DNA from: a virus
IMG/VR virus record: IMGVR_UViG_3300048924_000203
Span: 86,232 to 108,881 of that record
Length of the DNA stretch: 22,650 bases
Reading direction: 5' to 3' (one strand)
Shown here in pieces: positions 516 to 22,492 of the stretch. The notes under the pieces are model-generated. The model made no database searches, was not told where the DNA came from, and saw nothing but the letters and a program-made list of their open reading frames with translations. Numbering within the stretch: the first letter of the stretch is position 1; each line of letters starts with the position of its first letter. A program made the translations under genes and the position numbers.

Positions 516-992
516 ATGACTGACAGCGCCTTGGACACCACTGCACCCTCCGCCGCCGATCCTGTAGCGGCCCCGGCCCCGGTAGACGCCGCTACCACCC
601 TTCCCAGCGATGCCCCGACTGCAGAACAGCCGGCCGAGGATCCCGTGGAGGCTGCTAAGCGGAAGACCACCGAAAAGTGGCTGGCGGCCGAGACGGCATG
701 GAAGACCGCGTTCGACAAGGACTGGAAGTACGAACGCTACGAGTTCCACGGCGACCTCCTTGCCGTCCGCATCCCCAAGCAGGGCGCCCTGCTGGCCGTC
801 TCGATGGGCGGCGCCAAGTACGGGTCCACGGACGGCGGGCTCGGTGCCATGAACCAGTTCTGCAATCTGCACCTCGGCCCGGAATCCCGGCAGCGAGTGC
901 TGGACCGGATGATGAACCCCGACGAGACCGCCTACGGCGACTCGCCGATGGGTGATCTGTTCACGGCTCTGGGCAAGCTCTCCCCGGAGTAG
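516..992 (+). CDS. Tail assembly chaperone-like protein (first copy)
   Basis: Encodes 158 residues from ATG 516; in-frame starts also exist at 495 (GTG), 504 and 507, and none has a clear ribosome binding site. I chose 516 because it gives the common phage-like N-terminus MTDS. Residues 1-50 are Ala/Pro/Thr-rich. The rest, from about WKYERYEFHGDLL to LDRMM, resembles the N-terminal domain of actinophage tail assembly chaperones (functionally like lambda gpG), which coat the tape measure while the tail tube polymerises. Its place directly before the tape measure gene is the classical chaperone position. Oddly, no frameshifted extension can be found: the -1 frame closes at 1016-1018 and the +1 frame gives only an Arg-rich shadow of the next gene. 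A related domain recurs at 16021. Family assignment rests on position and motif likeness only. Confidence 0.72.
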   Translation: MTDSALDTTAPSAADPVAAPAPVDAATTLPSDAPTAEQPAEDPVEAAKRKTTEKWLAAETAWKTAFDKDWKYERYEFHGDLLAVRIPKQGALLAVSMGGAKYGSTDGGLGAMNQFCNLHLGPESRQRVLDRMMNPDETAYGDSPMGDLFTALGKLSPE

Positions 993-1027
993 CCGGAGCC
1001 TGCACGGGCGGTTCATAGCCTCACGGA

Positions 1028-4000
1028 GTGACGACCGCCGGGGCCATCAGAGTCGGCGTCGATATCGACGCAACCGGTCTCGGCGCCCGGCTCCACAGCG
1101 CCATCAGCTCCCAGCTCGCGCCCGTCATGGCGCAGCTGCGGTCACAGACCCAGGCCACCGGCAACGACTTCGGCAACCTCGCGCGCCGCACTGAGCTGTC
1201 CGCAACGCGCCAGGTCGTCGCGCTCCGCCGAGTCGAGCAGCAACTGCACAGTGTGCGCGACGCCGCGCTGCAGGCCCATGCCGCGCTGAACAGCCTGCAC
1301 GGCCCCGGGAACAACAGCGTCGGGCCGCTTGGCAACGGCGGCAACCTCACCATCAACCGGAACACCTACAACTACGACTACCGGAACTACTCGGTAACGA
1401 ACAACACCGTCAACAACTCGACCACCACGATCCACAACAACAGCGGCGGCGGTGGGGGCGGCGGCGGTGGTGGTGGAGGTGGCGGCGGGAACAACGGCAA
1501 CAACCGCCGCGGACTCTTCGGCGGCGGAGGCGTTGGCGGATTCCTCACTTCGCCAGGCGGCCTCGGTGTCCTCGGCCTCGGCGCCAATGCGCTCCCGGCC
1601 GCCACCCTCGCCGTCACCAACCTGCTCGGCGCCGTCCAGCAGCTCGTGCAAACCGGCTTCCTGCTGCCCGCAGCGTTCGGCGCTGCCGCCTCCTCGATAG
1701 GCACCGCGGTCATCGGCTTCAAGGGCATGGGCGAGGCCATCACGGCCATCAACAAGGGCATGGAGGAAGGCGCCAGCAAGGCCGACCTCAAGAAGATGGC
1801 CGCCGCGCTCAAGGACATGAACGGCAACGCGAAAGAGGTTGCCCTCACCGTCGCCACCGACGTGCTGCCCGCGTTCAAGAAGATCCAGCAGGACGTCGTC
1901 CAGCAGAACATGTTCGACGGCATCGCCGCCAGCATCACCACGCTGAAGGACAAGGCGATGCCGACGTTCGAGCGTGGGCTCGGCGGCATCGCCACGGCGT
2001 GGAACGACACCCTCAAGAAGGGCATGTCGGCCCTCGGCGATGACCAGAACCTGAGCCTGCTGGACCGGCTCTTCGGGAACACCGCGGAAGGCCAGAAGCG
2101 GGCCAACGCCGCCATCGCCCCGATCACGCACGCCATGGCTCAGCTAGCAGCCACCGGCAGCGAGTTCCTGCCACGGCTCGGCGACGCCATCGCGAAGGTG
2201 ATGACGCGGTTCGACAACTTCATCTCGAAGAACGCCGCGAACGGCAACCTCTGGCGCTGGATCGACGAGGGCCTCAACGGGATGCGTGCCCTCGGCAACA
2301 GCATCCTGAACATCGGGAAGATCTTCGCCGGCATCACGAAGGCCGCTGGCGGACTCACTGGCAGCCTGTCCGGGGACGGCGGATTCCTCGGCGGTATGGA
2401 GAAGCTCACCGGGCAGTGGGCTGACTTCATCAACAGCGCCGAAGGCCAGGAGAAGCTCGGCAACTTCTTCAAGGATGCGAAAGAGCGTCTCGGAGAATGG
2501 ATTCCGATTCTCGGCAACGTCGCCAAGGTGATCGGCGATGTCTTCGTAGGCCTGCAGCAGTGGGGCGATGTGCTGCTGCCGATCCTGTCGAAGGTGACGA
2601 GCGCGCTGTCGTCGATGCCGGGTCTGATCACGGCCGCGGTCACGGCGTTCGCCGGGTTCAAGACGCTGGGATGGCTCGCAGGATTACTCGGTGTGGGCGG
2701 CGGCGCGGGCGCTGGCGCTGGTGCTGGCGCTGCAGGTGGGCTGCTCGGCCTCCTCAGAGGACCACTGGGTGTAGGACTGGCCGGTGCTGGTCTCTTCACT
2801 GGCGGTGTCATGTCGTCGGCAGGTCCGGATGGTCCGGGCTGGGGATCGAGCCTGTCGACGATCGGCGGCGGCGCGCTGTTGGGCGGAGCGATCGGATCCG
2901 TAATCCCGGTGGTCGGTACCGCACTGGGCGCCGCGATCGGCGCCGGCGCCGGCGCCATCACTGTCGGCGTCCAGGCGCTCGTCGCGTCGATGGGCAATGT
3001 CGACAAGCCGCTGAACGACCTCACCGACAGCATCAGGGCCGCTGCCGCTGAGAACTGGAAGAACATCAAGAACCAGACCGGTCTGCAGGATGACCCGACT
3101 CCTGGCGTGAATCCTGGCCAGTCGTTCACCGGGCCGCGTCCGGTCGATGCGTTCGTGGTGACCGATCCCAACACGGGTCTTCCGGTTCCGATTGACCCCA
3201 ACAAGCCGAACGACCTCGGACGGTTGGGCCTGGGAGTCATCGACAACCCGCTGTCACGAACGGGTATCCCTGGGTGGGATTCGGGTTTCCCTGTCGACAA
3301 GGACGGGCGGCCCCTTGTCCGCACCGACAACACGGGACGGCCCCAGCCGAACGGCGGCCAAGACTTCACTGGCGGATTCGCGCCTGTCCCGACACCGTCG
3401 AACCCGTGGCCCGTGGCGGTCGTCAACGACCCGATGTCCGGCATCAACACTCCCGGATTGCCCGGGAACACGCTGGCGCCGAAGGACCTGGGCTCGCTGC
3501 TCGGCGGCGAAGCTCCGCCGACGCTGACCCCGAATCCAGCTGGCCCGGGACCGGCGTATCAGGCGACCCCGGCGACACCACCGCTGGCGCAGGGTCCGGG
3601 GTTGCCGAACAACTGGCCAGGTGGGGGAGGACCGCAGGCGCCGCTGCCTCCGGTCAAGGCCGACACCACGGCCGCGCAGGGCGATATCGACAAGCTCGCC
3701 ACGTCGATTCAGGGGCTCCCCAAGGGCGAGGTGGCGATCAAGTCTGACGACATCCCCAGGGTTAAGACGGACCTCGACAAGCTGAACACGCAGATCACGG
3801 ACGTCTCGAAGAACCAGATCATCGTCAAGGCCAACGATGACCAGGCCAAGACGGTGCTCGACAACCTGATCCAGTCGTATCAGGGCCGGTCGATCACGCT
3901 GAACGTCAACGCCGGTGGTGCCCCGGGCGTCCCCGCGGCACCAGGGCACGCCAACGGCGGAATCGTTCGTCGTGGATTCGACCAGGGTGGCTGGTACAGC

Positions 4001-7000
4001 GACGAGTGGCGGCGACGTCACGGGCTCGCCGGCGGAAACTTCAACCCCGGCGTGGCCATCGACACGTCTGGCACGATCGCTACAAATCAGCTGGTCGGCG
4101 GACTGATCGGCGATATGGGCGCCCCAGCGATCGACTACAACGACTACCTGGGCCTGGTCCAGGACAGCTACGGGCCGAACCCGTCGCAGTGGCGGATCAA
4201 CCAACCACACGGGGTACTACCCGGCTACTCGCCTGGCGTGGACAACCTGATGGTGCCGATGAGCGGCGGCGAAGGCGTCATCATCCCCGAGGCCATGAGG
4301 GCTCTGGGGCCGGACTGGTTGTACCGGCTGAACAGCCGCTTCCGCCCGGGTATCAGCCGATCTGGCTACGCGACCGGTGGCGTGGTCGGCGCCGACGGTG
4401 TACTCGGCGCACCCGACGACAGTGTGATCGGGCTGCTGACCCAGATCCGTGACTCCATCCAGGGCAAGGGCGGCGGCGCTTTGGCGACGACCGCGGACAA
4501 CACCACGACAATGGCGCAGGCGTTGGGCCCGAAGGCGAAGCCGTTCGGCGGGGACATCGGGAAGGGCGCGCTGGCCGGCGCCATCAAGGCACTCGGCGGG
4601 GACCCGAACCAGATGGACTGGGGAGGCTTCAACGGCGACGGCCAGCTCCTTGTCCCGAAGGGCATGACCGCTGGTGCTGGCGGCCAGCTGCTCGGCGGAG
4701 GCGGCAACCTGCCCATGCTGGCGCAGGTGCTGTCAGCGTTCGCCCGCTCCGGCAACGTCGGCGACCTCACCGGCTCCGGTCTGAACGTCAACAGCCCGGT
4801 CGTCACGGCGATCACGTCGGCCCGCAACAAGAAGACGGGCTTGGGCGACGACGCAATCGCCGGACTGGTACAGCAGGTGCTCACCGGTGGCGGCTACACC
4901 GGCGTGCTGGACTCGACGAACACCCCGCTGGTGAAGTCGTTGACACGGTTCCAACAGCAGCAGCTCACCGGCAAGGGTGGCGCGGTCGCCATGCCCGCAG
5001 GCGGGTTCGACGCTGCGCTGCTGTCTCAGGTACGGCCCGGCCAGTACTCCCAGACCGGCGCCGCCGACCTCACGAAGGGCCTCGCCGACTGCTCGTCCTC
5101 GGTTGAGGACCTCGTCAACCTCATGGACGGGATGCCCACCGGCGGCCGGGAGATGTCGACGGGCAACGCCTCCCAGTGGCTCACCAGCCGCGGCTTCGTG
5201 CCAACTGACGGTGTCGTTCCCGGCGCGATGAACGTCGCCTTCAACAGCGGCCATATGCAGGCCACCCTGCCCGACGGGACGCCGTTCAACTGGGGATCGG
5301 ACGCCGCGGCGGCACGGGGCGGCGTCGGCGGCAGCGGCGCCTTCGACCCAGCCTTGAACCAGCGGTTCTACCGGCCTGTCACCGGGATGCCGCTCGGTGC
5401 CGGACTCAGCGCTGGCATGGGAGCCAGCCCGCTGGGCTACTCCGGTGGTGGCCCGGTCCCGGTGTATATCGTCGACGGCCCGGGCGCCGGCGGGTTCGGG
5501 CAGCAGCTCGGCGGCCAACTGCTCGGCGACGCGCTCTCCGCGGCCGCACCGGCGGTCTCGGATGCTGCGGGCTCGATCATCACCGGCATCGACCAGGGCA
5601 CCCAGCTCGCACGCGACAGCACGAAGGACCGCCCTGCCGTGCGGACCGGCACGCTGATGAAGGAAGGCAACCCGCTCTCCGTCGCGGCGCTTGCCGGGTA
5701 CACGGTGCCGGACTTCACCCGCCAAGGCTGGAACGGGCAGGTGATGACCAACAGCGGTCCGGGCTTCAACGCCGGCGGGCAGATGATGTCCGACACCGCG
5801 TCGCTGATCATGCGAACCTTCACCGACACTCAGGCCGCGGCCGACGCCCGCCAGCAGCAGATGCTGTCCGTCCTGGACCAGATCAAGACGCAGCTGTCGG
5901 AGTCGGTGCTGAAGCCGATCATCCAATCGGCGGTCCAGTCGGCGATGGCGGCAGCCGGGCAGGCCGCACAGCAGGGCACCTCCGGCGGTGGGGGAGCGAT
6001 CCCCGGCCTCGCTGACGGCGGCGCGATCTGGGGCGGCACCCCGGGCGTCGACTCGGTGCCTCTGATGGGCATGCCCGGCGAGCACATGCTGACCACGAGG
6101 GATGTGTCGGCGATGGGCGGCCAGCGCGGCGTGTACGCCTTCCGGCAGGCGCTGCACCGCAACGGCGGGCTGCGGGGCTTCGCCGGTGGCGGCGGCATCG
6201 GCAACGACACTGTCGGCGCCGACTTCTTCGGTGTCTCTCAGGTGCCGGTCATCGGCGACATCATCAACCTGATCATGAAGATCCTGCTCAAGGTCATCGG
6301 CGTCGAGATCCAGGTGCGGGACACGATGAACCGGATGTCGGATGACTTCCGCCAGTTCCGCGGCGACTTCAAGGCATTCGACGCCAGCGGCCGGTTGATG
6401 AACGACACCAGCGGCCTGGTCGACCGGTCCGGGTCCAGCGAGGAAACCGTTGTGGCGGAGCGGGTCCGCATCTTCAAGCAGGTGCTCGAAGGTTTGGTCA
6501 AGTTCATCATTCAGAAGATCGTCATCCCCATCACGCAGGCGATCGCGTCGTCGCTGCTGCAGGCCGGCGCATCGGCGGCGGGCGGCGCGGCCGCCGGCGG
6601 CATCAACACGGTCGCCCCGGGAGCCGGTGGCATCGCGGGAAGCCTGATCACCAGCCTGATTTCGTCGGGCGGGCAGGCAGGCATCAACATCGGCGGCGAG
6701 ATCGCACAGATGATCGCCGGCGCCGCGACGGGACCGATCGTCGGCCTGCTGACAGACGGGTTCATGGGCATCTTCGGCAAGCTGCTGAACCCGATCCTGA
6801 CCGGCGGCATCGGCGGCCTGCTCAGCGCGTTCTTCCCGTTCCTTGCGTTCGATGACGGCGGCATGGCCAACGGCGTGGGCCTGTTGCCGAAGGCCACCGT
6901 CGAGCCGGAGCGGGTGCTGTCACCCCGGCAGACGAGCCTGTTCGAGGAGATGGTGCGCGCGAACTTCGGCGCCAGCGCCGCCAGCAGCAAGTCGGTCAGC

Positions 7001-7078
7001 GTCGGCAAGATCGTCATGCAGGGGACACAGGCCACTCCGGAGGCTGTGCGCCAAAGCATTCTGGACCTTCTGGAATGA
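1028..7078 (+). CDS. Tape measure protein with embedded Cys/His peptidase-like segment
   Basis: At 2016 residues this is by far the largest gene. Tape measure proteins fill the tail tube, set its length and exit at infection. Order: N-terminal helical part (1-90); an Asn/Thr/Tyr-rich stretch leading to a run of 15 glycines (140-154); hydrophobic segments (about 190-235, 530-595 and 625-655); a Pro/Gly-rich middle; a segment with Cys1355 in ADCSSS and His1409 in SGHMQ, the spacing expected of an NlpC/P60-like cysteine peptidase that could open host peptidoglycan; and helical, partly hydrophobic C-terminal parts. Three Gly/Pro segments recur near 1066-1090, 1668-1690 and 1947-1968. By the lambda rule of about 0.15 nm per residue the tail could approach 300 nm, less if the domains do not stretch. 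GTG 1028 is the first start after an in-frame stop at 1016. A TAGCCT box lies 6 bases before it, but no good Shine-Dalgarno is visible. Confidence 0.95.
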   Translation: MTTAGAIRVGVDIDATGLGARLHSAISSQLAPVMAQLRSQTQATGNDFGNLARRTELSATRQVVALRRVEQQLHSVRDAALQAHAALNSLHGPGNNSVGPLGNGGNLTINRNTYNYDYRNYSVTNNTVNNSTTTIHNNSGGGGGGGGGGGGGGGNNGNNRRGLFGGGGVGGFLTSPGGLGVLGLGANALPAATLAVTNLLGAVQQLVQTGFLLPAAFGAAASSIGTAVIGFKGMGEAITAINKGMEEGASKADLKKMAAALKDMNGNAKEVALTVATDVLPAFKKIQQDVVQQNMFDGIAASITTLKDKAMPTFERGLGGIATAWNDTLKKGMSALGDDQNLSLLDRLFGNTAEGQKRANAAIAPITHAMAQLAATGSEFLPRLGDAIAKVMTRFDNFISKNAANGNLWRWIDEGLNGMRALGNSILNIGKIFAGITKAAGGLTGSLSGDGGFLGGMEKLTGQWADFINSAEGQEKLGNFFKDAKERLGEWIPILGNVAKVIGDVFVGLQQWGDVLLPILSKVTSALSSMPGLITAAVTAFAGFKTLGWLAGLLGVGGGAGAGAGAGAAGGLLGLLRGPLGVGLAGAGLFTGGVMSSAGPDGPGWGSSLSTIGGGALLGGAIGSVIPVVGTALGAAIGAGAGAITVGVQALVASMGNVDKPLNDLTDSIRAAAAENWKNIKNQTGLQDDPTPGVNPGQSFTGPRPVDAFVVTDPNTGLPVPIDPNKPNDLGRLGLGVIDNPLSRTGIPGWDSGFPVDKDGRPLVRTDNTGRPQPNGGQDFTGGFAPVPTPSNPWPVAVVNDPMSGINTPGLPGNTLAPKDLGSLLGGEAPPTLTPNPAGPGPAYQATPATPPLAQGPGLPNNWPGGGGPQAPLPPVKADTTAAQGDIDKLATSIQGLPKGEVAIKSDDIPRVKTDLDKLNTQITDVSKNQIIVKANDDQAKTVLDNLIQSYQGRSITLNVNAGGAPGVPAAPGHANGGIVRRGFDQGGWYSDEWRRRHGLAGGNFNPGVAIDTSGTIATNQLVGGLIGDMGAPAIDYNDYLGLVQDSYGPNPSQWRINQPHGVLPGYSPGVDNLMVPMSGGEGVIIPEAMRALGPDWLYRLNSRFRPGISRSGYATGGVVGADGVLGAPDDSVIGLLTQIRDSIQGKGGGALATTADNTTTMAQALGPKAKPFGGDIGKGALAGAIKALGGDPNQMDWGGFNGDGQLLVPKGMTAGAGGQLLGGGGNLPMLAQVLSAFARSGNVGDLTGSGLNVNSPVVTAITSARNKKTGLGDDAIAGLVQQVLTGGGYTGVLDSTNTPLVKSLTRFQQQQLTGKGGAVAMPAGGFDAALLSQVRPGQYSQTGAADLTKGLADCSSSVEDLVNLMDGMPTGGREMSTGNASQWLTSRGFVPTDGVVPGAMNVAFNSGHMQATLPDGTPFNWGSDAAAARGGVGGSGAFDPALNQRFYRPVTGMPLGAGLSAGMGASPLGYSGGGPVPVYIVDGPGAGGFGQQLGGQLLGDALSAAAPAVSDAAGSIITGIDQGTQLARDSTKDRPAVRTGTLMKEGNPLSVAALAGYTVPDFTRQGWNGQVMTNSGPGFNAGGQMMSDTASLIMRTFTDTQAAADARQQQMLSVLDQIKTQLSESVLKPIIQSAVQSAMAAAGQAAQQGTSGGGGAIPGLADGGAIWGGTPGVDSVPLMGMPGEHMLTTRDVSAMGGQRGVYAFRQALHRNGGLRGFAGGGGIGNDTVGADFFGVSQVPVIGDIINLIMKILLKVIGVEIQVRDTMNRMSDDFRQFRGDFKAFDASGRLMNDTSGLVDRSGSSEETVVAERVRIFKQVLEGLVKFIIQKIVIPITQAIASSLLQAGASAAGGAAAGGINTVAPGAGGIAGSLITSLISSGGQAGINIGGEIAQMIAGAATGPIVGLLTDGFMGIFGKLLNPILTGGIGGLLSAFFPFLAFDDGGMANGVGLLPKATVEPERVLSPRQTSLFEEMVRANFGASAASSKSVSVGKIVMQGTQATPEAVRQSILDLLE

Positions 7079-7094
7079 AAGGGGGCTCGACACA

Positions 7095-8750
7095 ATGACT
7101 TTCAGAGGCTACTTCGCGCTGAACGGCACCGAACTCGTCAACAGCAGCCGCGTCGTCGGGCACCTCGGCCACGACATACCCACCAACGACCTCGGCATCA
7201 TCACCGGAATCCCGCCTGAGCCGCTGCTCATCGAGTCGCCCCCCGGCAGCGGCTTGTACCTGCCGGGCAACGGGCACCCCGAAGACCCGCCCGGCTCCGG
7301 CCTGTTCGACCCCGGAGTACTCGAGGAATGGATCAGCCCCGGCCTCTACCCGGGTGGCGACACATATCCCGGTTCGGGTACCTACCCGGGCGTCGGTGAC
7401 AGCGGTTTGTACCTCGTGGTGCCCTCGGGTGCATTCGAGTGTCAGCTTGTGCCGGCCGCCGGGCACGGCCCCGGCCTGTTCGAGATGCCGTCGACAGCGG
7501 AACCCATTGCGCCCGGTCTGTATTGGCCGCCCGACGGCTCCCGCCGCTGGGGCAACGCCATGCTCCTCGTCGGCGACATGTGCTGGCAGGAAGCCGAGCA
7601 ATGCAACGGCTGCTCTCGCGCCGTCGAGTACGACGACTCATGGACCGGGCTACACGACTTCCTCGGTGACACCATCTACCGCACCGAGCTGGCCCCCTGG
7701 TACTCGACGCGGCAGCCGGAATCCACTGAGTTCACGGGTATTTGGGTCACCAAGGTCGACGGGCTCGACACCGTGAAGGTGGACCGGCCCATCACACAGA
7801 TGATCGGGTCCGGCGGCTCCGCGGGTCCGCATCGTGACGCGACCCGCACCGTCAAGTTCGAGGCATACCTGCTGGCATGCTCCAACGCCGGCCTGGCGTA
7901 CGGACTGAAGTGGCTGACGTGCCGCCTGCGGGAGACGAACGACAACACCGACAGCGTGTTGCGGTTCCTCACCGCGCACCCCGACAACACGGCGCAGACC
8001 GCCGACACCATGGTCCGTGAAGCCCACGGAGTCGTGCTGACGAGCGGTCCGGACGTCACGAACCAGTGGGCGCCGTCGACCAAGTCGAACCAGCAGGCGA
8101 CCATCTACGAGGTCTCGTGGGAGATGGCGGTTACGAGCCCATACGTGTACCTGCCTCCGATCAATCTTCCGGTCGAATGGGATGTCATCGAGTCGAAGCC
8201 GATCAACTGGGTGCACGGCGCCGACTGTGCGGAGCCGGAGAACTGCGACCCGATGCCGGTCTTGTTCTCCGCCGACTGTGTCCCCGAAGTCATCGAGGTC
8301 ATCTCGTCGCCTCCGCCTGTGTGCGGTGGCTGTATGCCGGTGTGCGCCATCGAGAAGTACACATACCGGGTACCGACGATGGACTTCCCGCTGGCGTGCC
8401 ACGAGACCGCGGTGAACATGAAGATCACCAACCACGGCCTCGATCCGCTGACCGTGCAGGCGTACTGGCGTGTGTGCCAGACCGACATCCGGTGCGAGGA
8501 CAATCGGTGGCCGGTGCAGATCGCGGCGCTGCCGCATAACGCGACGATCGAGCTTGACGCCGTATCGGGCCGGTACTGGGGATGGTTCAAGGGCCGCAAG
8601 CACATTGCGCGCGGCATCGTCAGAACTCCGACCGGCGCGCCATGGCAGCCGACCATCCTCGACCGGGCGCAATGCTGGGAGTTCGTGGTCATCGCCCCGG
8701 GTGACGCCGATTTCTCAGTGGCGATGCAGCTGGTGGACCGCGAGCCATGA
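7095..8750 (+). CDS. Minor tail protein, distal-tail-like
   Basis: Encodes 551 residues. ATG 7095 is preceded by AAAGGGGG about 9 bases upstream, a good ribosome binding site. As the first gene after the tape measure and with an N-terminus MTFRGYFALNGTEL, it fits the distal tail (Dit-like) protein that links the tube to the tip in actinobacterial siphophages. Residues 49-147 hold a low-complexity Pro/Gly stretch with seven variants of an SGLY/PGLY motif (SGLYLPG, SGLFDPG, PGLYPGG and others), possibly an exposed loop. The protein is rich in cysteine, with clusters in MCWQEAEQCNGC and VCGGCMPVC, suggesting disulfides or a bound metal. The stop codon overlaps the next start (ATGA), so the two are probably translated together. 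The minor tail role is secure; the Dit assignment is inference. Confidence 0.88.
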   Translation: MTFRGYFALNGTELVNSSRVVGHLGHDIPTNDLGIITGIPPEPLLIESPPGSGLYLPGNGHPEDPPGSGLFDPGVLEEWISPGLYPGGDTYPGSGTYPGVGDSGLYLVVPSGAFECQLVPAAGHGPGLFEMPSTAEPIAPGLYWPPDGSRRWGNAMLLVGDMCWQEAEQCNGCSRAVEYDDSWTGLHDFLGDTIYRTELAPWYSTRQPESTEFTGIWVTKVDGLDTVKVDRPITQMIGSGGSAGPHRDATRTVKFEAYLLACSNAGLAYGLKWLTCRLRETNDNTDSVLRFLTAHPDNTAQTADTMVREAHGVVLTSGPDVTNQWAPSTKSNQQATIYEVSWEMAVTSPYVYLPPINLPVEWDVIESKPINWVHGADCAEPENCDPMPVLFSADCVPEVIEVISSPPPVCGGCMPVCAIEKYTYRVPTMDFPLACHETAVNMKITNHGLDPLTVQAYWRVCQTDIRCEDNRWPVQIAALPHNATIELDAVSGRYWGWFKGRKHIARGIVRTPTGAPWQPTILDRAQCWEFVVIAPGDADFSVAMQLVDREP

Positions 8751-9796
8751 CGATTGCTCCTGAGCGGCAAGCCATTTCGATTCACACCCAGAAGGGTGTG
8801 CAGCTGTATCAGTACCTGCCGGCGCGCACGATGGGCATCGAGTGGGGTCGCATCCTGCGGGACGTGTCCCGGGCGACCGTGACGCTGCCTCCGGACGATC
8901 ATCTCGCCGAGCTCGACATCGTGCCGTGGCTTCACTGGGTCAGCATCTGGGACGTCAACGACAGCAGGATGCCGCTGTGGACGGGCCCGCTCATGCGTCC
9001 GAGGATCAACCGCAACTCGCTCACATTGGAGGTTTGGGACTGCGCCGCGTTCATGATGAAAACGCGGGTTCCGTTCACCAAGGCGTGGGAAGCCACCGAC
9101 CCCGCCTATATCGCCGCCGAGCTGTGGGAGGCGATGACGGATAACCACGGGCTCAACGTCACGCCTATCGTGCGGCCGGACCCAGAAGGCCAGCCGTTCG
9201 ACTTCCAGGTGAAGGCCGACACCAACACGATGGACACCGTTATCCGCCAGCTCGTCGACCTGGGTCTGCGCTGGACGGTGGTGAAGGGAGTGCCGATCCT
9301 TGGGCCGGCCTCGAAGAAACACATCCAGGACCTTGGAGCGCAGGACTTCCTTGGCGACGGGTTGGAGCTGTCCCGTGACGGGTCGCAGTCGGCCAACGAC
9401 ATCCTGCTGCGTAACTCCGACGCCATCGCCCGCGCGCGGGTGCCGATGGCTGGTCTGAACTTGCAGTCGATCGTGACGATCGACAAGCAGGAGGGCGCGT
9501 CGAACGCCGAGCGCGCCGTGTACGAGCAGGCGAAGTACTTCTCGCAGATCCACGACTCAGTGACTGTCCCGCAAGGCAGCGAGCTACACCCCGAAGCACC
9601 CGTCGTGCTCGACGATCTGATCCCGTCGACCCGGTTCACAGTCACGGCCTACGGGCTGCGCACGCTGGTGGAGCTGGAGGACATGAAGGTCGCGGCGACG
9701 TCCGGTGCAGTGACAACGACCGTCAGCATGGAGTCCGTCGTGGAGCTGCCGGAACTCTCGACTGTCACAGGCAGCGGTCAGGCGGGTGCATCGTGA
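8747..9796 (+). CDS. Minor tail protein, hub-like (tail tip)
   Basis: Encodes 349 residues; ATG 8747 overlaps the preceding stop by four bases. It reads like the actinophage minor tail family often named Siphovirus ReqiPepy6 Gp37-like, with an early LYQYLPARTMGIEWGR segment, then WTGPLMRPRINRNSLTLEV and a middle domain that continues to about residue 300. Such proteins form the hub at the tail tip that closes the tube and carries receptor-binding parts. Position two after the tape measure agrees with this. The last 50 residues are Thr/Val-rich. No enzymatic motif is visible. The family name is from memory of the sequence pattern and should be held at moderate certainty. Confidence 0.85.
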   Translation: MTIAPERQAISIHTQKGVQLYQYLPARTMGIEWGRILRDVSRATVTLPPDDHLAELDIVPWLHWVSIWDVNDSRMPLWTGPLMRPRINRNSLTLEVWDCAAFMMKTRVPFTKAWEATDPAYIAAELWEAMTDNHGLNVTPIVRPDPEGQPFDFQVKADTNTMDTVIRQLVDLGLRWTVVKGVPILGPASKKHIQDLGAQDFLGDGLELSRDGSQSANDILLRNSDAIARARVPMAGLNLQSIVTIDKQEGASNAERAVYEQAKYFSQIHDSVTVPQGSELHPEAPVVLDDLIPSTRFTVTAYGLRTLVELEDMKVAATSGAVTTTVSMESVVELPELSTVTGSGQAGAS

Positions 9797-10284
9797 GCGG
9801 CAGCCACGTCGGCCGGCGACCCCGCACGGAGGCACAGTGGGCGCGGGACCAGCAGCAGCAGATCAAGGAACTCCAGAAACGGGACACGTTGCGTCTGGGG
9901 GAGTGGGTGCTGTCTGAGCGTGACGGCGAGATCGTCGCTACCAAGCCCGGCCGCAAACCGGTGGTGCTGACCAAGGCGCTGGACGAGGCAGACACCAGCG
10001 GTCTGCGGCGTGTTCAGCGGATCATCACCCTGTCGGGCGTAACGGGCGGCAACCTCGGACTGATCTACCGCGGCGACCCACTTACCGTGTCGTGGAACGC
10101 CTCGCAAGCAACGCTGCTGAGCGCGTTCCTCGTGCTCCGGACCTCCTACACGGCGTTGGATTTCAACGTCACCGGCCCCAATGGCGGACCCTGGATTGTC
10201 ACCCACCCGGGCGGCACACTCGATGCGGACCTGACTGGGCTGACCGGTCCTTCGCCGGCCGTCGACATCACCGTCCCGTCCTAG
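9793..10284 (+). CDS. Minor tail protein
   Basis: Encodes 163 residues, starting at GTG 9793, which overlaps the previous stop (GTGA). The N-terminus is highly charged and Gln-rich (QWARDQQQQIKELQKRD), probably a short helix or coiled coil, followed by LRLGEWVLSERDGEIVA, a pattern common in small structural proteins behind the hub gene of mycobacteriophages. The C-terminal half (about 75-163) appears to be a beta-rich domain with Gly/Thr/Asp turns. It most likely attaches fibres or decorates the tail tip. The role is inferred from position and composition. Confidence 0.78.
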   Translation: MSGSHVGRRPRTEAQWARDQQQQIKELQKRDTLRLGEWVLSERDGEIVATKPGRKPVVLTKALDEADTSGLRRVQRIITLSGVTGGNLGLIYRGDPLTVSWNASQATLLSAFLVLRTSYTALDFNVTGPNGGPWIVTHPGGTLDADLTGLTGPSPAVDITVPS

Positions 10285-10285
10285 T

Positions 10286-10933
10286 GTGACCGCCGTGGCG
10301 AGGGACTGGGTAGAGCCGAACGTCTGCACAGACGAGAACCTTGCCGTGTCGGTCGACGGCCTGCTGAAGCTCGCGCCGTGGTCGGTGCCGCGCAATGTCG
10401 TTGATGTGATGGCGAAGTCGACCGGCGACGGCAAGGTGACGCCGTACACCGCGCTGCCAGGGAAGTTGCTGATCGACCAGCAGGTGAACTGGATCAACGC
10501 CTCACCGCTCGACGCCATGGTGTTGATCCGGGTCACGCGATCGACCCGCTACTGGCAGACGTCGACGCCGAACGCGATCCAGCTGCGTGACCGGTGGACC
10601 CGTGACGTAGACCGTCAACCCGACGTGCCGACCGTGACTGGGCCCCACAACTCTGAGTGCGGTAGCGCGATCGACGTCGGCACGAACAGCGTTGCCGAGC
10701 CGAAACCTGGTCAGCACTGGCTGTGGCAGGGCGCCGGCACCAGCGACGAGTGGTACCCGTTTCCGATCAGGCCTGGTGAGAACCTGCGGCTTTGGTACCG
10801 CTGCTACCTGTGGACGCCGCCGCCGTGGTCGGACAACGCGAACAAGAACTCGCCGCGGCACCAGGCGTACGCCCGATGGACGCGTATTCAGATGATCGCG
10901 TTCCCGACGCAGGGAAAGCTGGTGTCTGGCTGA
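10286..10933 (+). CDS. Minor tail protein, first of three related copies
   Basis: Encodes 215 residues from GTG 10286, one base after the previous stop; GTG 10295 is an alternative start. No Shine-Dalgarno is evident, so translation probably depends on coupling. The C-terminal part, with RLWYRCYLWTPPPWS and then ARWTRIQMIAFP, aligns by eye with the next protein (HFRYLCAVQTPGVWT, then NWCRLQAFAVP), and the middle segment NASPLDAMVLIRVTRS matches NNNDADLQMWVMVHRA there and NDTPVPQWVYGLVTRG in the third gene. This suggests duplication and divergence, giving related subunits of a tail-tip assembly. The exact function is unknown. Confidence 0.82.
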   Translation: MTAVARDWVEPNVCTDENLAVSVDGLLKLAPWSVPRNVVDVMAKSTGDGKVTPYTALPGKLLIDQQVNWINASPLDAMVLIRVTRSTRYWQTSTPNAIQLRDRWTRDVDRQPDVPTVTGPHNSECGSAIDVGTNSVAEPKPGQHWLWQGAGTSDEWYPFPIRPGENLRLWYRCYLWTPPPWSDNANKNSPRHQAYARWTRIQMIAFPTQGKLVSG

Positions 10934-11532
10934 TGGCGATGAAAGTCTGCACATCCGAGCTGATGATCTCCGACGTCAACGGCGTCGGCATGGCCCGCGC
11001 CTACTTCCCTCAGATCGTGAAAGAGGCCTTCCTCACCTCAGGCAAGGACGGGGAGATCAAGCGATCGCCGGACCCGGTCACGATGATCGACGGTGACCTG
11101 ACGTTCTTCAACAACAACGACGCTGACCTGCAGATGTGGGTGATGGTGCATCGCGCACCGCGCAGCATCGTCAGTACGAGCCCGGTGACCGTGATCATCC
11201 ACGACGCCTGGTCCTTCGACGTCGGCACTAACCCACAGGCGGAGTACCCGTCGGTGTTTCAGGACTCGTTCGGCGGCAAGCTGCAGCTCGACAAAGCCAG
11301 CGTGTCGGGGGAGGACCTCAAGTTCGGGCGGTTCTTCCTCAACTTCGACGACTCCCAGGCGTGGGAGCCCATCGGCATCGTGAAGTCCCAGCAGGCCCTG
11401 CACTTCCGCTACCTCTGCGCTGTCCAGACTCCCGGCGTGTGGACCGAGCCGACCGAGAAAGCGCCCCGCTACGAAGCGAAGGCGAACTGGTGCCGGCTGC
11501 AAGCGTTCGCTGTCCCGGTCGGAGGTGCTTGA
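10933..11532 (+). CDS. Minor tail protein, second related copy
   Basis: Encodes 199 residues. ATG 10933 shares its A with the preceding stop (TGATG), and a second ATG follows two codons later. The sequence has an aromatic, beta-rich look throughout, with a central segment NNNDADLQMWVMVHRAPRS and a C-terminal strand pattern CRLQAFAVPVGG that recall both neighbouring proteins. Four cysteines are present. It probably assembles with the flanking genes into the same tail-tip structure. No catalytic motif is visible, so assignment rests on paralogy and position. Confidence 0.82.
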   Translation: MAMKVCTSELMISDVNGVGMARAYFPQIVKEAFLTSGKDGEIKRSPDPVTMIDGDLTFFNNNDADLQMWVMVHRAPRSIVSTSPVTVIIHDAWSFDVGTNPQAEYPSVFQDSFGGKLQLDKASVSGEDLKFGRFFLNFDDSQAWEPIGIVKSQQALHFRYLCAVQTPGVWTEPTEKAPRYEAKANWCRLQAFAVPVGGA

Positions 11533-11534
11533 GC

Positions 11535-12152
11535 GTGACCTGCGTTGACCCGAACCACTTCTACGTCCTTAACGGTGCGATCGTGCCGCAGCCATGGATG
11601 CAGATGCGGCAGGTCGACTCGAAGACCGTCGTGGCCAAGTCCGGCACGTACGGCCATTCCGGCGGCGCGACGAAGAACGACCTGCTGCAGACGGTGACCG
11701 CGAAGTTCGTGAACGACACTCCAGTGCCGCAGTGGGTGTACGGGCTCGTGACTCGCGGCGGCAGCAAGGTCACGCTGCAGGCCCGGTCCCGCGCCGGTAT
11801 CAGCCTGCTGACCGGCCAGCTGCTCGGCGAAGGCGCGATCCCGATGGTCGAGGCCAGCCTGCTGGGCTGCGGCCTCGACATCGGCCGGGGTGGCTTCCTG
11901 ACCGCCGGCACCGAGTACGCGATCACCGAGGTCCGGCAGAACACCAGCACCATCCCGCTGTGCCCCGAGCAGACCGGCTGGAAGCGCGTCGACCCCAACG
12001 CCACGCTGTACGCCCGGGCCGACACCCGGTTCGTGTCCACCTACTGGGAGGGCACTGACCCGAACAACGGCAACGGCTCCGCGGACTCCGAAACCACCTA
12101 CGTGGCCGGTGACCTGCGCATCGACCTGTACGCCATCCCGATATTCGAGTGA
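11535..12152 (+). CDS. Minor tail protein, third related copy
   Basis: Encodes 205 residues from GTG 11535, with a strong ribosome binding site (GGAGGT, 11521-11526) 8 bases upstream, unusual here because most neighbours rely on overlap. Shared features with the two upstream genes are the segment NDTPVPQWVYGLVTRGGS and a final strand DLRIDLYAIPIF. Gly-rich turns occur around residues 92-120 (GQLLGEG, LGCGLDIGRGG). It is the most diverged of the three copies. It is followed by the only sizeable gap in the tail operon (38 bases), so a transcript unit may end here. Confidence 0.8.
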   Translation: MTCVDPNHFYVLNGAIVPQPWMQMRQVDSKTVVAKSGTYGHSGGATKNDLLQTVTAKFVNDTPVPQWVYGLVTRGGSKVTLQARSRAGISLLTGQLLGEGAIPMVEASLLGCGLDIGRGGFLTAGTEYAITEVRQNTSTIPLCPEQTGWKRVDPNATLYARADTRFVSTYWEGTDPNNGNGSADSETTYVAGDLRIDLYAIPIFE

Positions 12153-12155
12153 CCT

Positions 12156-12188
12156 GGGGTTAGCACCCCCGACGTCTACTTTTCGGGG
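12156..12188 (+). promoter_or_regulatory. Overlapping hairpins and TACTTT box before fibre gene
   Basis: The gap after the third minor tail copy can form either GGGGT-TAGC-ACCCC (12156-12169) or CCCCGA...TCGGGG (12167-12172 with 12183-12188); both use the same C-run and so exclude each other. TACTTT (12177-12182) fits the actinobacterial -10 form TAnnnT and lies 8 bases before ATG 12191, the leaderless layout. It could be a weak terminator followed by an internal promoter, or an attenuator-like switch. All of this is inferred from sequence. Confidence 0.4.
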
Positions 12189-12190
12189 CT

Positions 12191-12604
12191 ATGGCGGACC
12201 TTGTCATTGGTTACAACCCCTCGCAGCCGATCGGCCAACGGCTGTCGGAGGAGGTACGCGCCGAGATCAACGTCATCGCGCCGTCCACGGTCAACAACGG
12301 CGACATCACCGACGCGAAGCTCGCCGACAACGCAGTGACGACCCGATCGATCAAGCCTGGCGCCGTGACCAGCGAGAAGATCGCTAACGGCGGCGTCCAG
12401 GCCATCAACATCGGCGACGGCCAAGTGACGGCCGGGAAGCTCGCCCCAGGAGCCGTCACACCCGACGTCGTGGCACCGGGTGTGGTCACCGCAGTCGACG
12501 CCGCTGGCAACGCGATCACCGTCAAGATCGCCCACGTCACCGCCGCCGAATACGCGGCCCTGACGAACCCTGACCCGAACACCGACTACTTCATCAGCTC
12601 CTAA
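12191..12604 (+). CDS. Small fibre-like tail protein with GAVT repeats
   Basis: Encodes 137 residues. Residues 38-100 consist of imperfect repeats of the kind DAKLADNAVTTRSIKPGAVT, SEKIANGG, AGKLAPGAVT and APGVVT. Such short hydrophobic/Gly/Asp repeats are typical of phage fibre or spike proteins that fold as trimeric beta structures or beta-helices. It may link the tail tip to the larger fibre proteins that follow. ATG 12191 lacks a Shine-Dalgarno but has a TACTTT box 8 bases upstream, so the start may be leaderless. The stop overlaps the next start (TAATG). Confidence 0.82.
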   Translation: MADLVIGYNPSQPIGQRLSEEVRAEINVIAPSTVNNGDITDAKLADNAVTTRSIKPGAVTSEKIANGGVQAINIGDGQVTAGKLAPGAVTPDVVAPGVVTAVDAAGNAITVKIAHVTAAEYAALTNPDPNTDYFISS

Positions 12605-13983
12605 TGCCGCAGATCATCCGTGGCGCGGGCAGCACGATCACCGCGATCAAGCACGGCAACACCGACATCAATGAGATCCGGCGTGGTTCGACGCTGATCT
12701 GGTCGAAGGCCGCGCTGCGCATCGACTTCCGGGTCCTGGACGATCAGGTCGGTCTCGGATCCAGCTGGACTGACTACGGCCCTGCGGTGTCCCCGTACTT
12801 GGCGTCGGTCGACGGCGGGGTATGTCGAATCAACCTGCCCGACAACGTCACCAACATCTCGGCGCAGCGATCGCAGATGCGGTACAACGCCACCACAACC
12901 ACCACGGCCGACGGCTACCTCGAAGTCGGTGTCGGTTCCTGGGGGCATTGGGATCCGGCGTTCCGGACCATCGTCTACGACCACATGTCGAACTCGTCGT
13001 TTGACGACGGCATCGGCATCGGCTTCTGGGGTCAGGCACTGCGCATTGTGCGCCGCGTCGCCGGTACTGAGACCACGATGGCCACCGGTGGCGGCTTCCA
13101 GACCGGCGACATCATTCGCATGGTCCACCTGAACAACGGCAAGCTGCACCAGCTCTACCGCAACGGGCGCCTGTCCTGCTGGTGGGATGACTCAGCCGGT
13201 ACAGCGAACGTCGACATTAACCACCGCTCGGTCGGCATCAGCACGTACGGCCGCAAAGACAACTTCCTTGTGCCGCGCTGCTACTCCACCGGCATCTCCT
13301 ACATCGAAGCCGGCGGCGGGGACCGCCGCATCCTGCCGATGGCGACGTCGGTCGCCGACACGTGGAACAACCGGCACATCGTCATGTCGTTCGACGACTA
13401 CGTTCCGGTGGCCGGGGACTTCATCCTGGTGTCGGCCTGCTACCGGGACGTCCCCAACTTCGCCACCACCAGCCCACCGGCAGGCTGGGTAGAGCTGACG
13501 AGCGTCAAATCCTCAGTGGGAGTGCAGTACTGCATTCATCACGTCGTTACGCAGGCAGAAGCTGACGCTGCACAGACGGCGTGGACGCTCCGGAACTACT
13601 GGAACAGCGCCCACTACACCGGCATCGTCGCGACCGTGTTCCGCGGCGTGAAGACGTCTGCGCCTATCGACGCCTTCGCCACCGGCTTCAACTCCGCCAA
13701 CAGCTCCCCGCACGTCCTGCCAGCTCTGCCGACCGTGTCGAACCGATCGCTCGTCGTCGGCATGCCGTGCGCCGCGTACGCGCAGCTCTATCCCGGCACC
13801 CCGCCAAACGGATGGCAGACGCTGGTCAACGCCCGAAAAGCGTCCGCACAGCCGCGAATGATGCTGCAGCGCACCGCCCTTACCCAGTCAGGTGTGCCGG
13901 TTCCGGCGGCGAACGTCACCCCCGGCGAACCCAGTCGCTACACCGCGATCACCGTCGCGCTGGCCGAAGCACCGTCGAGCTAG
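12604..13983 (+). CDS. Minor tail protein, probable receptor-binding
   Basis: Encodes 459 residues, coupled to the previous gene by a one-base overlap. The N-terminal 35 residues end in INEIRRGSTLIWSKA, a short motif seen repeatedly in actinophage tail-tip proteins just before their variable domains. Residues 40-225 are rich in Gly, Trp, Tyr and Asp, with a lectin-like beta-sandwich look (YLEVGVGSWGHWDPAF, DDGIGIGFWG). Residues 250-459 form a second domain (VAGDFILVSACYRD, then ATVFRGVKTSAPIDAF) whose pattern recurs in the protein at 15341. I infer a host-surface binding role from position and composition; no enzyme motif is seen. Confidence 0.82.
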   Translation: MPQIIRGAGSTITAIKHGNTDINEIRRGSTLIWSKAALRIDFRVLDDQVGLGSSWTDYGPAVSPYLASVDGGVCRINLPDNVTNISAQRSQMRYNATTTTTADGYLEVGVGSWGHWDPAFRTIVYDHMSNSSFDDGIGIGFWGQALRIVRRVAGTETTMATGGGFQTGDIIRMVHLNNGKLHQLYRNGRLSCWWDDSAGTANVDINHRSVGISTYGRKDNFLVPRCYSTGISYIEAGGGDRRILPMATSVADTWNNRHIVMSFDDYVPVAGDFILVSACYRDVPNFATTSPPAGWVELTSVKSSVGVQYCIHHVVTQAEADAAQTAWTLRNYWNSAHYTGIVATVFRGVKTSAPIDAFATGFNSANSSPHVLPALPTVSNRSLVVGMPCAAYAQLYPGTPPNGWQTLVNARKASAQPRMMLQRTALTQSGVPVPAANVTPGEPSRYTAITVALAEAPSS

Positions 13984-13994
13984 GAGCATCCGAG

Positions 13995-15341
13995 ATGACG
14001 AAGAAGCTGATCTCGATCAACGATGAGCAGCCACCCGGCGCGCAGCTGCCGATCGTCGTGCGTTCTGAGCTCGACGAGGTGTGGCGGCAAGCACGCGACG
14101 ACCTGCAGGTGCACAAGGCCGGCGCCGAAACCATCACCGGTGCGAAGACCCTGACGGCGAAGCTGACAGCCCGTGACATCGAGGTGTCGCCGCTGACCGT
14201 CGGCGGCAACGCGGTGCTGAAGATGACCAACGGGTCGCAGTCGTGGGCATTCACAGTCAGCGCCGACGGGAAACTGTCGGTGCTGGATGTGACTGCCGGT
14301 TCGGCGCCGGTGGTGCTGGCCCCGGGTGCCGCGGCCTTGGCCCTGCAGGTGCTGGCGACCAAGCTGCTTGCCGGCGCCGACCTCGACCTGGGTGGACACA
14401 ACCTGTCCGGTGTCGGTAACGCCAACCTGCCGAACGGGCCGGTGTTCACTACCGGTGCTGGCGTGCTGCCGGTGGCGCTGTTGCCGGCATCGGCGATGAC
14501 GTTCCTCGGCATGTGGGACGCGTCGACGAACACGCCGACCGTGGCGCCTGGCGCCGGTATCTCGGGCCAGACGTACCGAGTTTCAGTGGCGGGAAACCGT
14601 GACATCGGCGAAGGCGTCACGGAGTTCCAGCCGGGCGACTCGATCATCTACGACGGGGCGGTGTGGCGGAAGCAGGACAACACCGAGCACGTCGCGTCCG
14701 TCGCCGGTCTGATCGGCGCCATCACCCCGGCCGCCCTGCGCTCGGCACTCTCGCTGGTGGTGGGCACCGACGTCCAGGCGCAGAACGCCAACCTGCAGGC
14801 GCTCGCCGGCGTGACGTCGGCGAGCGACACCCTCGCCTACTTCACCGGCAGCGGAGCCGCCGCAGCCACGACGCTGACCAGCTTCATCCGCACCCTGTTG
14901 GACGACGTCGACGCGGTCGCTGCGCGGAACACGTTGGGGCTCGGTGCGGTGGCTACGAAGGCCGGCAACGTCGCGGTACCGGTGTGGATAGAGATTCACG
15001 CCGGGTACGGCGTCCGCTCGGTCGGCTACATGGACAACGCCATGGGTTTCACGGTGCCCGCCAACTTCATCCTCGGCCAGGTCATCTACCGCGGCACCAC
15101 CGCCGACGCCAGCGGGTCCACCACGGTCGAGCTGCGCCAGAACGGTGTCCAAATCGCCAGCAGCGTCAAGGCCATCACCGCGGCCAATCAGTGGGCGCAG
15201 AGCACCAACACCACAGCAACCATCGGCAACACCGTCAATGCGGGCGACATCCTGCGCCCCTACATCAGCAGTCTGGGCACCACACCCGGCAACGGGTTCG
15301 GGTGCACGCTCGTCGGTACCGTCAGCGTGGCGGTGACGTAA
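13995..15341 (+). CDS. Tail fibre protein
   Basis: Encodes 448 residues. ATG 13995 has AGGAG (13982-13986) 8 bases upstream. The middle contains typical fibre motifs: LALQVLATKLLAGADLDLGG, FLGMWDASTNTPT with a YDGAVWRKQ segment, LQALAGVTSASDTLAYFTGS and RNTLGLGAVATKAG, the last two common in tail fibres of many siphophages. About 110 C-terminal residues form a beta-rich, Thr/Gly/Asn-rich domain likely to contact the host. Its stop overlaps the next start by one base. Fibre function is well supported by motifs; the receptor is unknown. Confidence 0.87.
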   Translation: MTKKLISINDEQPPGAQLPIVVRSELDEVWRQARDDLQVHKAGAETITGAKTLTAKLTARDIEVSPLTVGGNAVLKMTNGSQSWAFTVSADGKLSVLDVTAGSAPVVLAPGAAALALQVLATKLLAGADLDLGGHNLSGVGNANLPNGPVFTTGAGVLPVALLPASAMTFLGMWDASTNTPTVAPGAGISGQTYRVSVAGNRDIGEGVTEFQPGDSIIYDGAVWRKQDNTEHVASVAGLIGAITPAALRSALSLVVGTDVQAQNANLQALAGVTSASDTLAYFTGSGAAAATTLTSFIRTLLDDVDAVAARNTLGLGAVATKAGNVAVPVWIEIHAGYGVRSVGYMDNAMGFTVPANFILGQVIYRGTTADASGSTTVELRQNGVQIASSVKAITAANQWAQSTNTTATIGNTVNAGDILRPYISSLGTTPGNGFGCTLVGTVSVAVT

Positions 15342-16009
15342 TGCCTACCTGCCTGATCGGTATTCCGAAGACCAGCGCGGCGCCGCTGTTCCTCGCATCG
15401 GGGTCTGGGTTCACCACCACGGGCGGCTCGAACATGAGCCCGCAGTGCACGGTGAACGTGGCCCAAGCCGGCGGCTGCATCGTCGCGCTAACCTGCCGAC
15501 ACACCAACTGGAACAACACGCTGACCGCCAAGACCGTGGTCAGCGACCAAGGGTCGGTATTCACCGAAATTCCGGGGTCCGACACGGTGCGCGGTGTCAG
15601 CGGTCAGCGTCTCGGTCACGTGGTGCTGTTCTACTGCCAGAATCCGGCGATAGGACTGCACACGCTCACCGGCAACGTACAAGCCGCCCAGTCGTTCACC
15701 CGCGCGAACATCCTGGGGGCGTTCTACGGCAACGTGATCGGGTACCAGAACTTGGCGACGCAGAGCACCACAGGCAGCCAGGCTGTGGCGCTGTCGGTGA
15801 CATCGACAGCGGGCAACATCCCGTTCATCGGCGTGACAACAGGAGCCGCCATGACCGGATGGAACTGGACCAACCGCGAGACCCAGGACGGCGATCTAAG
15901 CCTGATCGGTGACCGCGGCATCACCGCCGTCACGGGAGCGGTCAACTTCAGCACGAGCAGCACTGGACACAACGTCGCCGCAGCCGGTGTCGATCTCATC
16001 GCAGCATAG
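15341..16009 (+). CDS. Minor tail protein sharing a domain with the gene at 12604
   Basis: Encodes 222 residues, beginning with the A of the previous stop codon. It is beta-rich and Thr/Ser/Gly-heavy, with few charged residues. The pattern of GGCIVALTCRHTNW, RANILGAFYGNVIGY and a final VAAAGVDLIAA follows the order of strands in the C-terminal domain of the minor tail protein encoded at 12604 (DFILVSACYRD, YTGIVATVFRGV, YTAITVALAEA). The domain could be a small carbohydrate-binding or decoration module. Both the paralogy and the role are judged by eye. Confidence 0.75.
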   Translation: MPTCLIGIPKTSAAPLFLASGSGFTTTGGSNMSPQCTVNVAQAGGCIVALTCRHTNWNNTLTAKTVVSDQGSVFTEIPGSDTVRGVSGQRLGHVVLFYCQNPAIGLHTLTGNVQAAQSFTRANILGAFYGNVIGYQNLATQSTTGSQAVALSVTSTAGNIPFIGVTTGAAMTGWNWTNRETQDGDLSLIGDRGITAVTGAVNFSTSSTGHNVAAAGVDLIAA

Positions 16010-16020
16010 GAGGCCTCGGC

Positions 16021-16383
16021 ATGTATGACCCGCCCGCCGGCTATCAAGACTTCCTCGCCGACGCCGAAAACAACGACCGTGGCGACGGCCCGATGTACCC
16101 GCTCCACGTGGAGGGTGTGGGCACGATCCAGGCGCGCAAACCCATCCCCGGCAGTGCCGCGCCGTTGGGCGCGGCGGGCCGATCGAAGATCCCCGACCGG
16201 GAGAAGCTCGGCTATCTGAACCTGTTCGTGCGCAACCACATCGGCGCCGACCAGTACGAGCAGCTGCTGGAGCGGATGATGACCGATGACGCCCCGGCTG
16301 ACACGATGCCCCGGATCGTCGAGGCCATCACGACAAGGGGCACGGCCCGCCCTACCAAGCGGTCATCACACTCTGTGTGCTGA
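16021..16383 (+). CDS. Tail assembly chaperone, short form (second copy)
   Basis: Encodes 120 residues; the best ribosome binding site in the window, AGGAGG (16008-16013), is 7 bases upstream. The region LHVEGVGTIQARKPIPGS to NHIGADQYEQLLERMM resembles the N-terminal domain of siphophage chaperones and also the protein at 516. The 0-frame end after about residue 105 (ARPTKRSSHSVC) is low in hydrophobics and looks like a tail read out of the productive frame, as is usual for gpG-type proteins. The neighbouring -1 frame is open from 16290 to 16676 and carries the conserved extension. Its place after the minor tail genes, rather than before the tape measure, is unusual. Confidence 0.82.
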   Translation: MYDPPAGYQDFLADAENNDRGDGPMYPLHVEGVGTIQARKPIPGSAAPLGAAGRSKIPDREKLGYLNLFVRNHIGADQYEQLLERMMTDDAPADTMPRIVEAITTRGTARPTKRSSHSVC

Positions 16384-16679
16384 CCGCTCACCACTGGCGA
16401 CCGCTGCGGTCGAAGCTGCTGCTGGCCGGGATCGGTGACCCGATGGGCCTGCCGTCCATGCACTCTCTTTTGGACCTGACCGAGTCGGCGCTGACTGAGT
16501 CGATGTCCGCGGACCCTGAGGAAGGCAGCAAGAAGGTCTCGGAGTTCATCGACCAGCTGTACGCCCCGCCGGTTGAACCCGCCAAGGCCAAAGCCGGCTA
16601 CAAGGCTCCGCCGTCGTGGTGGACCGAAGGCAATTCGGACGACGAGTTTGACGCCGCGCAGCGCGCCGCTCCGCGCTGA
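16021..16679 (+). CDS. Tail assembly chaperone, long form by -1 frameshift
   Basis: The long product shares its N-terminus with the 120-residue form, then shifts back one base between 16290 and 16383. After the shift the reading is GHGPPYQAVITLCVLTAHHW, a typical start of the second chaperone domain (the lambda gpGT equivalent), then a helical stretch LLDLTESALTES and a charged end. The best slip candidate is AAGGGGC at 16335-16341 (codons AGG GGC in frame 0); it is not a perfect X XXY YYZ heptamer. Independent start at GTG 16377 is possible but would lose the conserved GHGPPYQAV part. The long form is expected at a low ratio and would recruit tape measure and tube subunits. Location of the slip is uncertain; the two-frame arrangement is clear. 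Confidence 0.75.
16335..16341 (+). promoter_or_regulatory. Candidate -1 ribosomal frameshift site
   Basis: AAGGGGC, read A AGG GGC in the frame of the short chaperone. A -1 slip here joins the frame-0 residues ITTRG to HGPPYQAV. It lies in the only overlap of the two open frames (the -1 frame has a TGA at 16287; frame 0 stops at 16381-16383). Pairing after the slip is imperfect, so the exact site is tentative. Confidence 0.45.
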
Positions 16680-16701
16680 TATCCGCTGCACCCAAGGCTC
16701 A

Positions 16702-21201: not shown

Positions 21202-21254
21202 AGTAAGTGCCCAGGAATGACGGATTCGTCTGGCCGCAAGCAAGACGGTTCGGA

Positions 21255-21260
21255 TACGGT
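21255..21260 (+). promoter_or_regulatory. TACGGT -10-like box, leaderless layout for integrase
   Basis: TACGGT (TAnnnT) sits 7 bases before GTG 21268, so the integrase message could begin at this codon. It lies inside the longer reading from ATG 21217, so both cannot be used by the same RNA. No clear -35 is seen. Confidence 0.45.
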
Positions 21261-21267
21261 GCGATTC

Positions 21268-22437: not shown

Positions 22438-22464
22438 CCGGCGAAAGTAACCGGAAAGTAGTCG
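22428..22464 (+). repeat. Short direct repeats at end of integrase gene
   Basis: GCGAAAGTGACCG (22428-22440) and GCGAAAGTAACCG (22441-22453) are adjacent and differ at one base; a third, shorter version GAAAGTAGTCG follows (22454-22464). An inverted copy, CACTTTCGC, lies at 22485-22493. Short repeats next to an att core are what integrase arm-binding sites look like; this is inference. Confidence 0.5.
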
Positions 22465-22492
22465 AAAATACCCTCGGCGGGTATCACTTTCG
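22463..22492. terminator. Bidirectional terminator between integrase and tRNA
   Basis: ATACCC-TCGGC-GGGTAT (22468-22484) is a perfect 6-bp stem, extended by CGAAA (22463-22467) pairing with TTTCG (22488-22492) across a 3-base bulge. On the minus strand the stem runs into TTTTC, giving a weak T-run after the tRNA. On the plus strand it would stop integrase transcripts. A second hairpin, GCCGA/TCGGC, lies at 22501-22516. Confidence 0.5.

Follow-up and report, generated by a model that had tools for sequence, protein, structure and literature searches.

A probable tail assembly chaperone pair with a candidate −1 frameshift signal far beyond the tape measure gene, and its T-less paralogue at the usual place

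That the tail assembly chaperone genes of tailed phages are frameshifted is textbook knowledge, and the G–T frameshift was reportedly described as conserved among them by Xu, Hendrix and Duda in 2004. The DNA analysed here (the window, 22,650 nucleotides) is the right end of a 108,881-bp IMG/VR virus record and contains tail genes, lysins, an integrase and a tRNA-Leu. It raises the question of why two chaperone-like proteins should stand apart in one tail region, and which of them, if any, is produced by frameshifting. A preliminary description of the sequence had noticed that the first protein (TAC1) lies before the tape measure and has no extension, and that the second (G2) has a −1-frame extension (T) but lies about 9 kb past the tape measure; both points hold (Table 1), the G2 start being 8.9 kb past the tape measure end. 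The tape measure itself matches PHROG tape-measure families (best 3.6e-185, N-terminal 824 aa), and a long glycine run is present in its N-terminal part (window ~1455-1505). An ORF with a lipoprotein-like signal (IAIGSGCVGC) is located immediately 5' of TAC1 (4-453), which is unusual content for this spot of a tail operon; it matched no Pfam family and had no significant hit in PHROG. The record closes with an integrase that adjoins the tRNA-Leu (CAA) (21217-22600), likely marking a prophage attachment site.

Table 1. Positions of the chaperone genes, the tape measure gene and the proposed frameshift elements in the window.
Feature	Position	Strand	Description
TAC1	516..992	+	Phage_TAC_16 protein, 158 aa, directly 5' of the tape measure, without T extension
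Tape measure protein	1028..7078	+	ORF, 2016 aa
G2	16021..16383	+	Second Phage_TAC_16 protein, 120 aa by normal decoding
Putative −1 slip site CGC CCT AC	16348..16355	+	C_CCU in the P site
Stem-loop, putative frameshift stimulator	16359..16387	+	Starts 5 nt after CCT, −17.8 kcal/mol
T extension (DUF7240)	16353..16679	+	−1 frame, first codon TAC at 16353
Putative G2-T product	join(16021-16353,16353-16679)	+	219 aa

The domain that TAC1 and G2 had been suggested to share by eye corresponds to one protein family. TAC1 (1.7e-19, 70 bits) and G2 (1.9e-28, 99 bits) both match Pfam PF23781 Phage_TAC_16 above its curated cut-off of 27 bits, and for TAC1 this is the family found rather than a different one. 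In PHROG, TAC1 belongs to phrog_1118 “tail assembly chaperone” (1.2e-22) and G2 to phrog_915 (1e-38). BLASTP aligns the two proteins over 31 aa (6e-06), and when alignments of nine members each are compared as profiles, the probability is 98.5% (E 3e-15, 87 columns), the match pairing EFHGDLLAVRIPKQG with HVEGVGTIQARKPIPG and LGPESRQRVLDRMM with IGADQYEQLLERMM, the segments picked in the preliminary description. The predicted structures of TAC1 (medium confidence, pLDDT 66) and G2-T (pLDDT 87) have their elements in a common order, with a beta hairpin first and then four helices. T, translated in the −1 frame from 16320, matches Pfam PF23888 DUF7240 (8.5e-26, 91 bits, cut-off 27). Within the whole 108,881-bp record there are exactly two Phage_TAC_16 matches, TAC1 and G2, and one copy of T, adjoining G2. 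In a tree of 20 TAC1 and 17 G2 proteins, the two groups form clades parted by one branch with support of 100/100; because of this single branch, the split is placed before the divergence of these phages. The profile match and the tree support the duplication that had been suggested, and indicate that it is old.

The second suggestion, that the module was relocated, was approached through gene order in relatives. Searching 36 records with both Pfam families revealed the same arrangement in all 32 that were long enough, the other four being fragments of contigs. Each of the 32 has two TAC_16 genes, no more and no fewer, and a single DUF7240, which always directly follows the distal TAC_16 gene; the extended copy shares the strand of TAC1 and lies 11-23 kb further downstream. 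The gene pair matches ~490 GenBank phages, mainly Cluster B mycobacteriophages. By tblastn, G2 is matched in 492 phage records and TAC1 in 481, nearly all from Mycobacterium and Gordonia, and the fused protein of phage Mask, described below, matches 497, of which 494 over at least 80% of its length. A search of IMG/VR with G2 alone returned no loci, and T was matched, among 397 sampled actinobacterial genomes, only in the genome used as the centre. Actinophage chaperones are usually located at or near the tape measure (PMC12859696). Since G2-T is downstream in all 32 records, relocation is supported, and the best reading is that a pair of the gpG/gpGT type has moved downstream, a direction that we infer, whereas an older T-less paralogue retains the usual place. 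In the window, the position that is usual, if not strictly required, for such a pair, immediately upstream of the tape measure or a few genes away on that side, is occupied by TAC1 only.

Where would the G2 and T frames be joined? The T frame is conserved from the TAC codon on, with the pattern YxA(V/A)xxL...W, and upstream of TAC it is without conservation. No start codon for T is conserved among relatives, and in Tsukamurella phage TPA2 the stretch from the slip site to the conserved HxW motif has none at all. The slip is placed at CCT because the T frame is conserved only from TAC and T has no conserved start. Every one of the 34 distinct two-frame junctions has the zero-frame sequence CGC CCT AC; this occurs once in the window, both strands considered, and CCT makes up 0-13% of proline codons in tape measures. 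Four Cluster B phages have a zero-frame stop at CGC CCT ACC TAG, and conservation of the −1 frame nonetheless continues past it. A slip at an upstream AAGGGGC run was considered and rejected, as relatives and fused genes place the junction at RP|Y.

The proline tRNA reading CCU can re-pair with CCC one base back. CGC CCT AC does not follow the canonical X_XXY_YYZ slippery heptamer, and a single-tRNA slip from C_CCU to CCC is the only kind possible at it. CCT alone is no proof of slipping, because its T follows if tyrosine is required in the −1 frame. The C_CCU motif is, by our reading, not one of the backward motifs in the list of the PRFect tool, and this could help to explain why the site was missed. 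Taken with the stem-loop described below, CGC CCT AC is a strong candidate for the chaperone frameshift signal; −1 slipping at the G2–T junction, and its rate, are predictions from sequence. All p-values given here are indicative, the counts coming from related phages.

A 12-bp stem with a 5-nt loop begins 5 nt after CCT in every two-frame relative, with at most two mismatches. Its positions are paired in 96.7% of cells (25 distinct rows), 8 of the 12 pairs have changed on both sides, none of 500 shuffles reaches the observed score, and versions of the stem slid along the alignment pair at most 59%. In 13 of 13 sequences, that of fused Mask included, the stem is stronger than those obtained by synonymous recoding of the T peptide, the fraction of recodings in this test being 0.0005-0.03. 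The stem partly follows from the A-V...A peptide, and Mask, in which no slip is needed, still retains much of it. Spacing (5-8 nt being expected) and covariation are those of a stimulatory structure, and the stem probably acts as a frameshift stimulator. An Rfam search of 16200-16700 yielded only a sub-threshold match on the minus strand, taken as chance.

A natural control is provided by relatives, including phages Dori and Mask, that encode G2 and T in one ORF. Their 8 distinct junctions all read ...ARPYxAV..., which is the product expected from a −1 slip at CCT (...ARP|YxAV...). None contains CGC CCT AC; the codons are CGC, AGG or CGG, then CCC or CCG, then TAC or TAT, and the slip site of Mask has an additional C compared with the two-frame consensus. 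The stem is weaker than in two-frame relatives, with, on average, 8.9 pairs formed out of 12 against 11.5 (p 7e-6, relatedness not corrected for) and a mean energy of −10.2 versus −18.2 kcal/mol (likewise uncorrected); the fused relative L134 has kept a strong stem that is nearly as stable (−18.3). On the G2-T protein tree, the one-ORF and two-ORF states have changed at least four times, and well supported branches force all four changes. The relatives and the window thus present, at the level of sequence, what characterizes a gpG/gpGT pair, namely a short protein and a cross-frame fusion with a common N-terminus.

A separate observation concerns the fused junction of Mask (L009:23644-23717), where CCC_UAC is of a type known for +1 slipping; the product of such a shift would be a short G2 ending in ...ARPTSR. 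Such a slip on CCC_U is possible in Mask, but it is not general because two other fused genes have CCG.

It is very probable, on the above data, that G2 and T are a gpG/gpGT-like pair of tail assembly chaperones, that a −1 slip at CCU, aided by the stem, makes G2-T, and that TAC1 is a T-less paralogue. In the proposed mechanism, most ribosomes would finish G2, and a minority, with tRNA-Pro on CCU (16351-16353), would slip back one base, helped by the stem-loop downstream, re-pair with CCC and read T to give the G2-T fusion. By analogy with phage λ, the G part would bind the tape measure and the T part would recruit the major tail protein. TAC1, anciently duplicated, would have kept its place at the tape measure without T; its position and family make it most likely a G-only chaperone that binds the tape measure as well. 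The homology, the conserved split, the slip site, the covarying stem and the natural fusions are direct properties of the sequences, from which we infer all binding partners of TAC1, G2 and G2-T. The λ analogy draws on fold comparison: the G2-T model resembles predicted actinophage chaperones over most of its length (SilentRX, TM 0.50/0.58; Lilbeanie, 0.45/0.49), and several chaperones were found in a viral model library with probability up to 1.00 and modest E values (0.004-0.04). Searches of solved structures with the models gave no match. Given this modest fold likeness, a λ-type mechanism, with G binding the tape measure and T the major tail protein, is the most likely one for G2 and G2-T.

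Split roles of TAC1 and G2/G2-T, one of the readings suggested at the outset, are a plausible hypothesis. A more specific version is that the old duplication divided the work between TAC1 as a dedicated G-type coat and G2/G2-T as a distant module set by C_CCU, with the two genes alone setting the G:G-T ratio in the fused lineages, so that gene dosage would have replaced frameshifting several times. We put this forward tentatively, as an idea with somewhat less than an even chance of being right.

The rival that survives best accepts the frameshift and questions its target: G2-T would serve another structural protein, e.g., the adjoining fibres, and TAC1 alone would serve the tape measure. Its basis is that, throughout the relatives, G2-T follows the fibre and minor-tail genes and TAC1 stays at the tape measure. 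However, phage gene neighbourhood does not fix partners, and the predicted fold, similar to that of chaperones encoded at the tape measure, together with the two-product G/GT design, fits tape-measure binding better, which leaves this rival rather unlikely. It is improbable to a much greater degree that T is a separate protein, made without a frameshift, either by initiation at a start codon of its own or by coupling of its translation to the G2 stop. Annotators do call T as its own gene, and in many Cluster B phages an ATG overlaps the G2 stop (TGATG). Nevertheless, the −1 frame is conserved from TAC, 5' of that ATG (YxAVIxL), even in the four phages in which G2 stops two codons past CCT; the window has GTG as its first T start, and TPA2 has none; fused relatives join at TAC and not at ATG; and an own start would leave the invariance of the slip site and the stem without a reason. 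Improbable to about the same degree is that both elements are by-products of overlapping frames and conserved peptides: the T of CCT is indeed the first base of the conserved Tyr codon, and AVxxL...A peptides favour some pairing, as the residual stems of fused genes show, but the third base of CGC would be free if T starts at Tyr, and yet the codon is CGC in 34/34 junctions versus 5/8 fused ones (Fisher p 0.005, uncorrected for relatedness), the changes in the stem are compensatory, and all 13 recoded sequences fold better in their natural form.

The preferred reading, a G2/G2-T pair set by a −1 slip, bears on the annotation of these phages. GenBank labels G2 and T mostly as “hypothetical protein”, and the Prann annotation calls G2 a tail assembly chaperone without a join. 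Announcements of Thunderbird, Gwilliam and Jiraiya (PMC12352053), Basato (PMC10793310) and Holeinone (PMC6544185) report no chaperone frameshift in Cluster B, and no paper placing such a frameshift at G2-T was found in the open-access literature. The annotated chaperone frameshift gp21/gp22 of Gordonia phage NHagos was rejected as a counterpart, as gp22 is not Phage_TAC_16; the similarity of its frame is to HK97-gp10-like tail proteins, at 0.0053 and short of the Pfam cut-off. Zemanar gp24, labelled “tail assembly chaperone”, aligns to TPA2 gp31 (2e-29), which is HK97-gp10-like. The joined NHagos gp22 and Zemanar gp24 (L008:8806-9569, L002:2771-3184) both resemble HK97-gp10-like tail proteins, neither is Phage_TAC_16, and their chaperone labels are likely misannotations.

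Beyond the preliminary description, the analysis adds the conservation over hundreds of phages, the putative slip site with its stem-loop, and the relatives in which G2 and T are naturally fused. The “missing” Cluster B frameshift receives a candidate place defined base by base, in a gene pair matched in ~490 phage records, and the putative slip motif differs from the usual heptamer. For Cluster DJ phages of Gordonia, a 2026 paper has raised the question of whether chaperones that seem to be missing sit in an atypical place (PMC12859696), and G2-T would offer a worked example. As the two frames have been fused repeatedly, one can also ask whether frameshifting must set the G:G-T ratio.

In λ, G binds the tape measure and T binds the major tail protein (PMC5009743). 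Both products of a gpG/gpGT pair are also expected to be missing from virions. G2/G2-T resembles gpG/gpGT in having a short G, a predicted rarer −1 fusion G-T and a T in the −1 frame near the end of G. It differs in lying ~9 kb beyond the tape measure instead of before it, in the T-less paralogue at the usual place and in the slip site C_CCU_A, which is no canonical heptamer. Among actinophage chaperones whose annotated frameshift lies at the tape measure, Muddy gp17/gp18 being an example, several resemble the predicted G2-T fold; Muddy G has no sequence similarity to G2-T by profile, and the genome place of G2-T is another one. T4-like phages have a separate short gene and a fused long gene in place of frameshifting (PMC10885494), an arrangement for which PMC12859696 cites Vladimirov et al. 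2022. Dori, Mask and other one-ORF relatives, with a short TAC1 and a fused G2-T gene, are similar to them. In contrast to T4-like phages, most relatives keep G2-T in two frames with the candidate slip signal, and TAC1, as a paralogue that has diverged, is no copy of G2.
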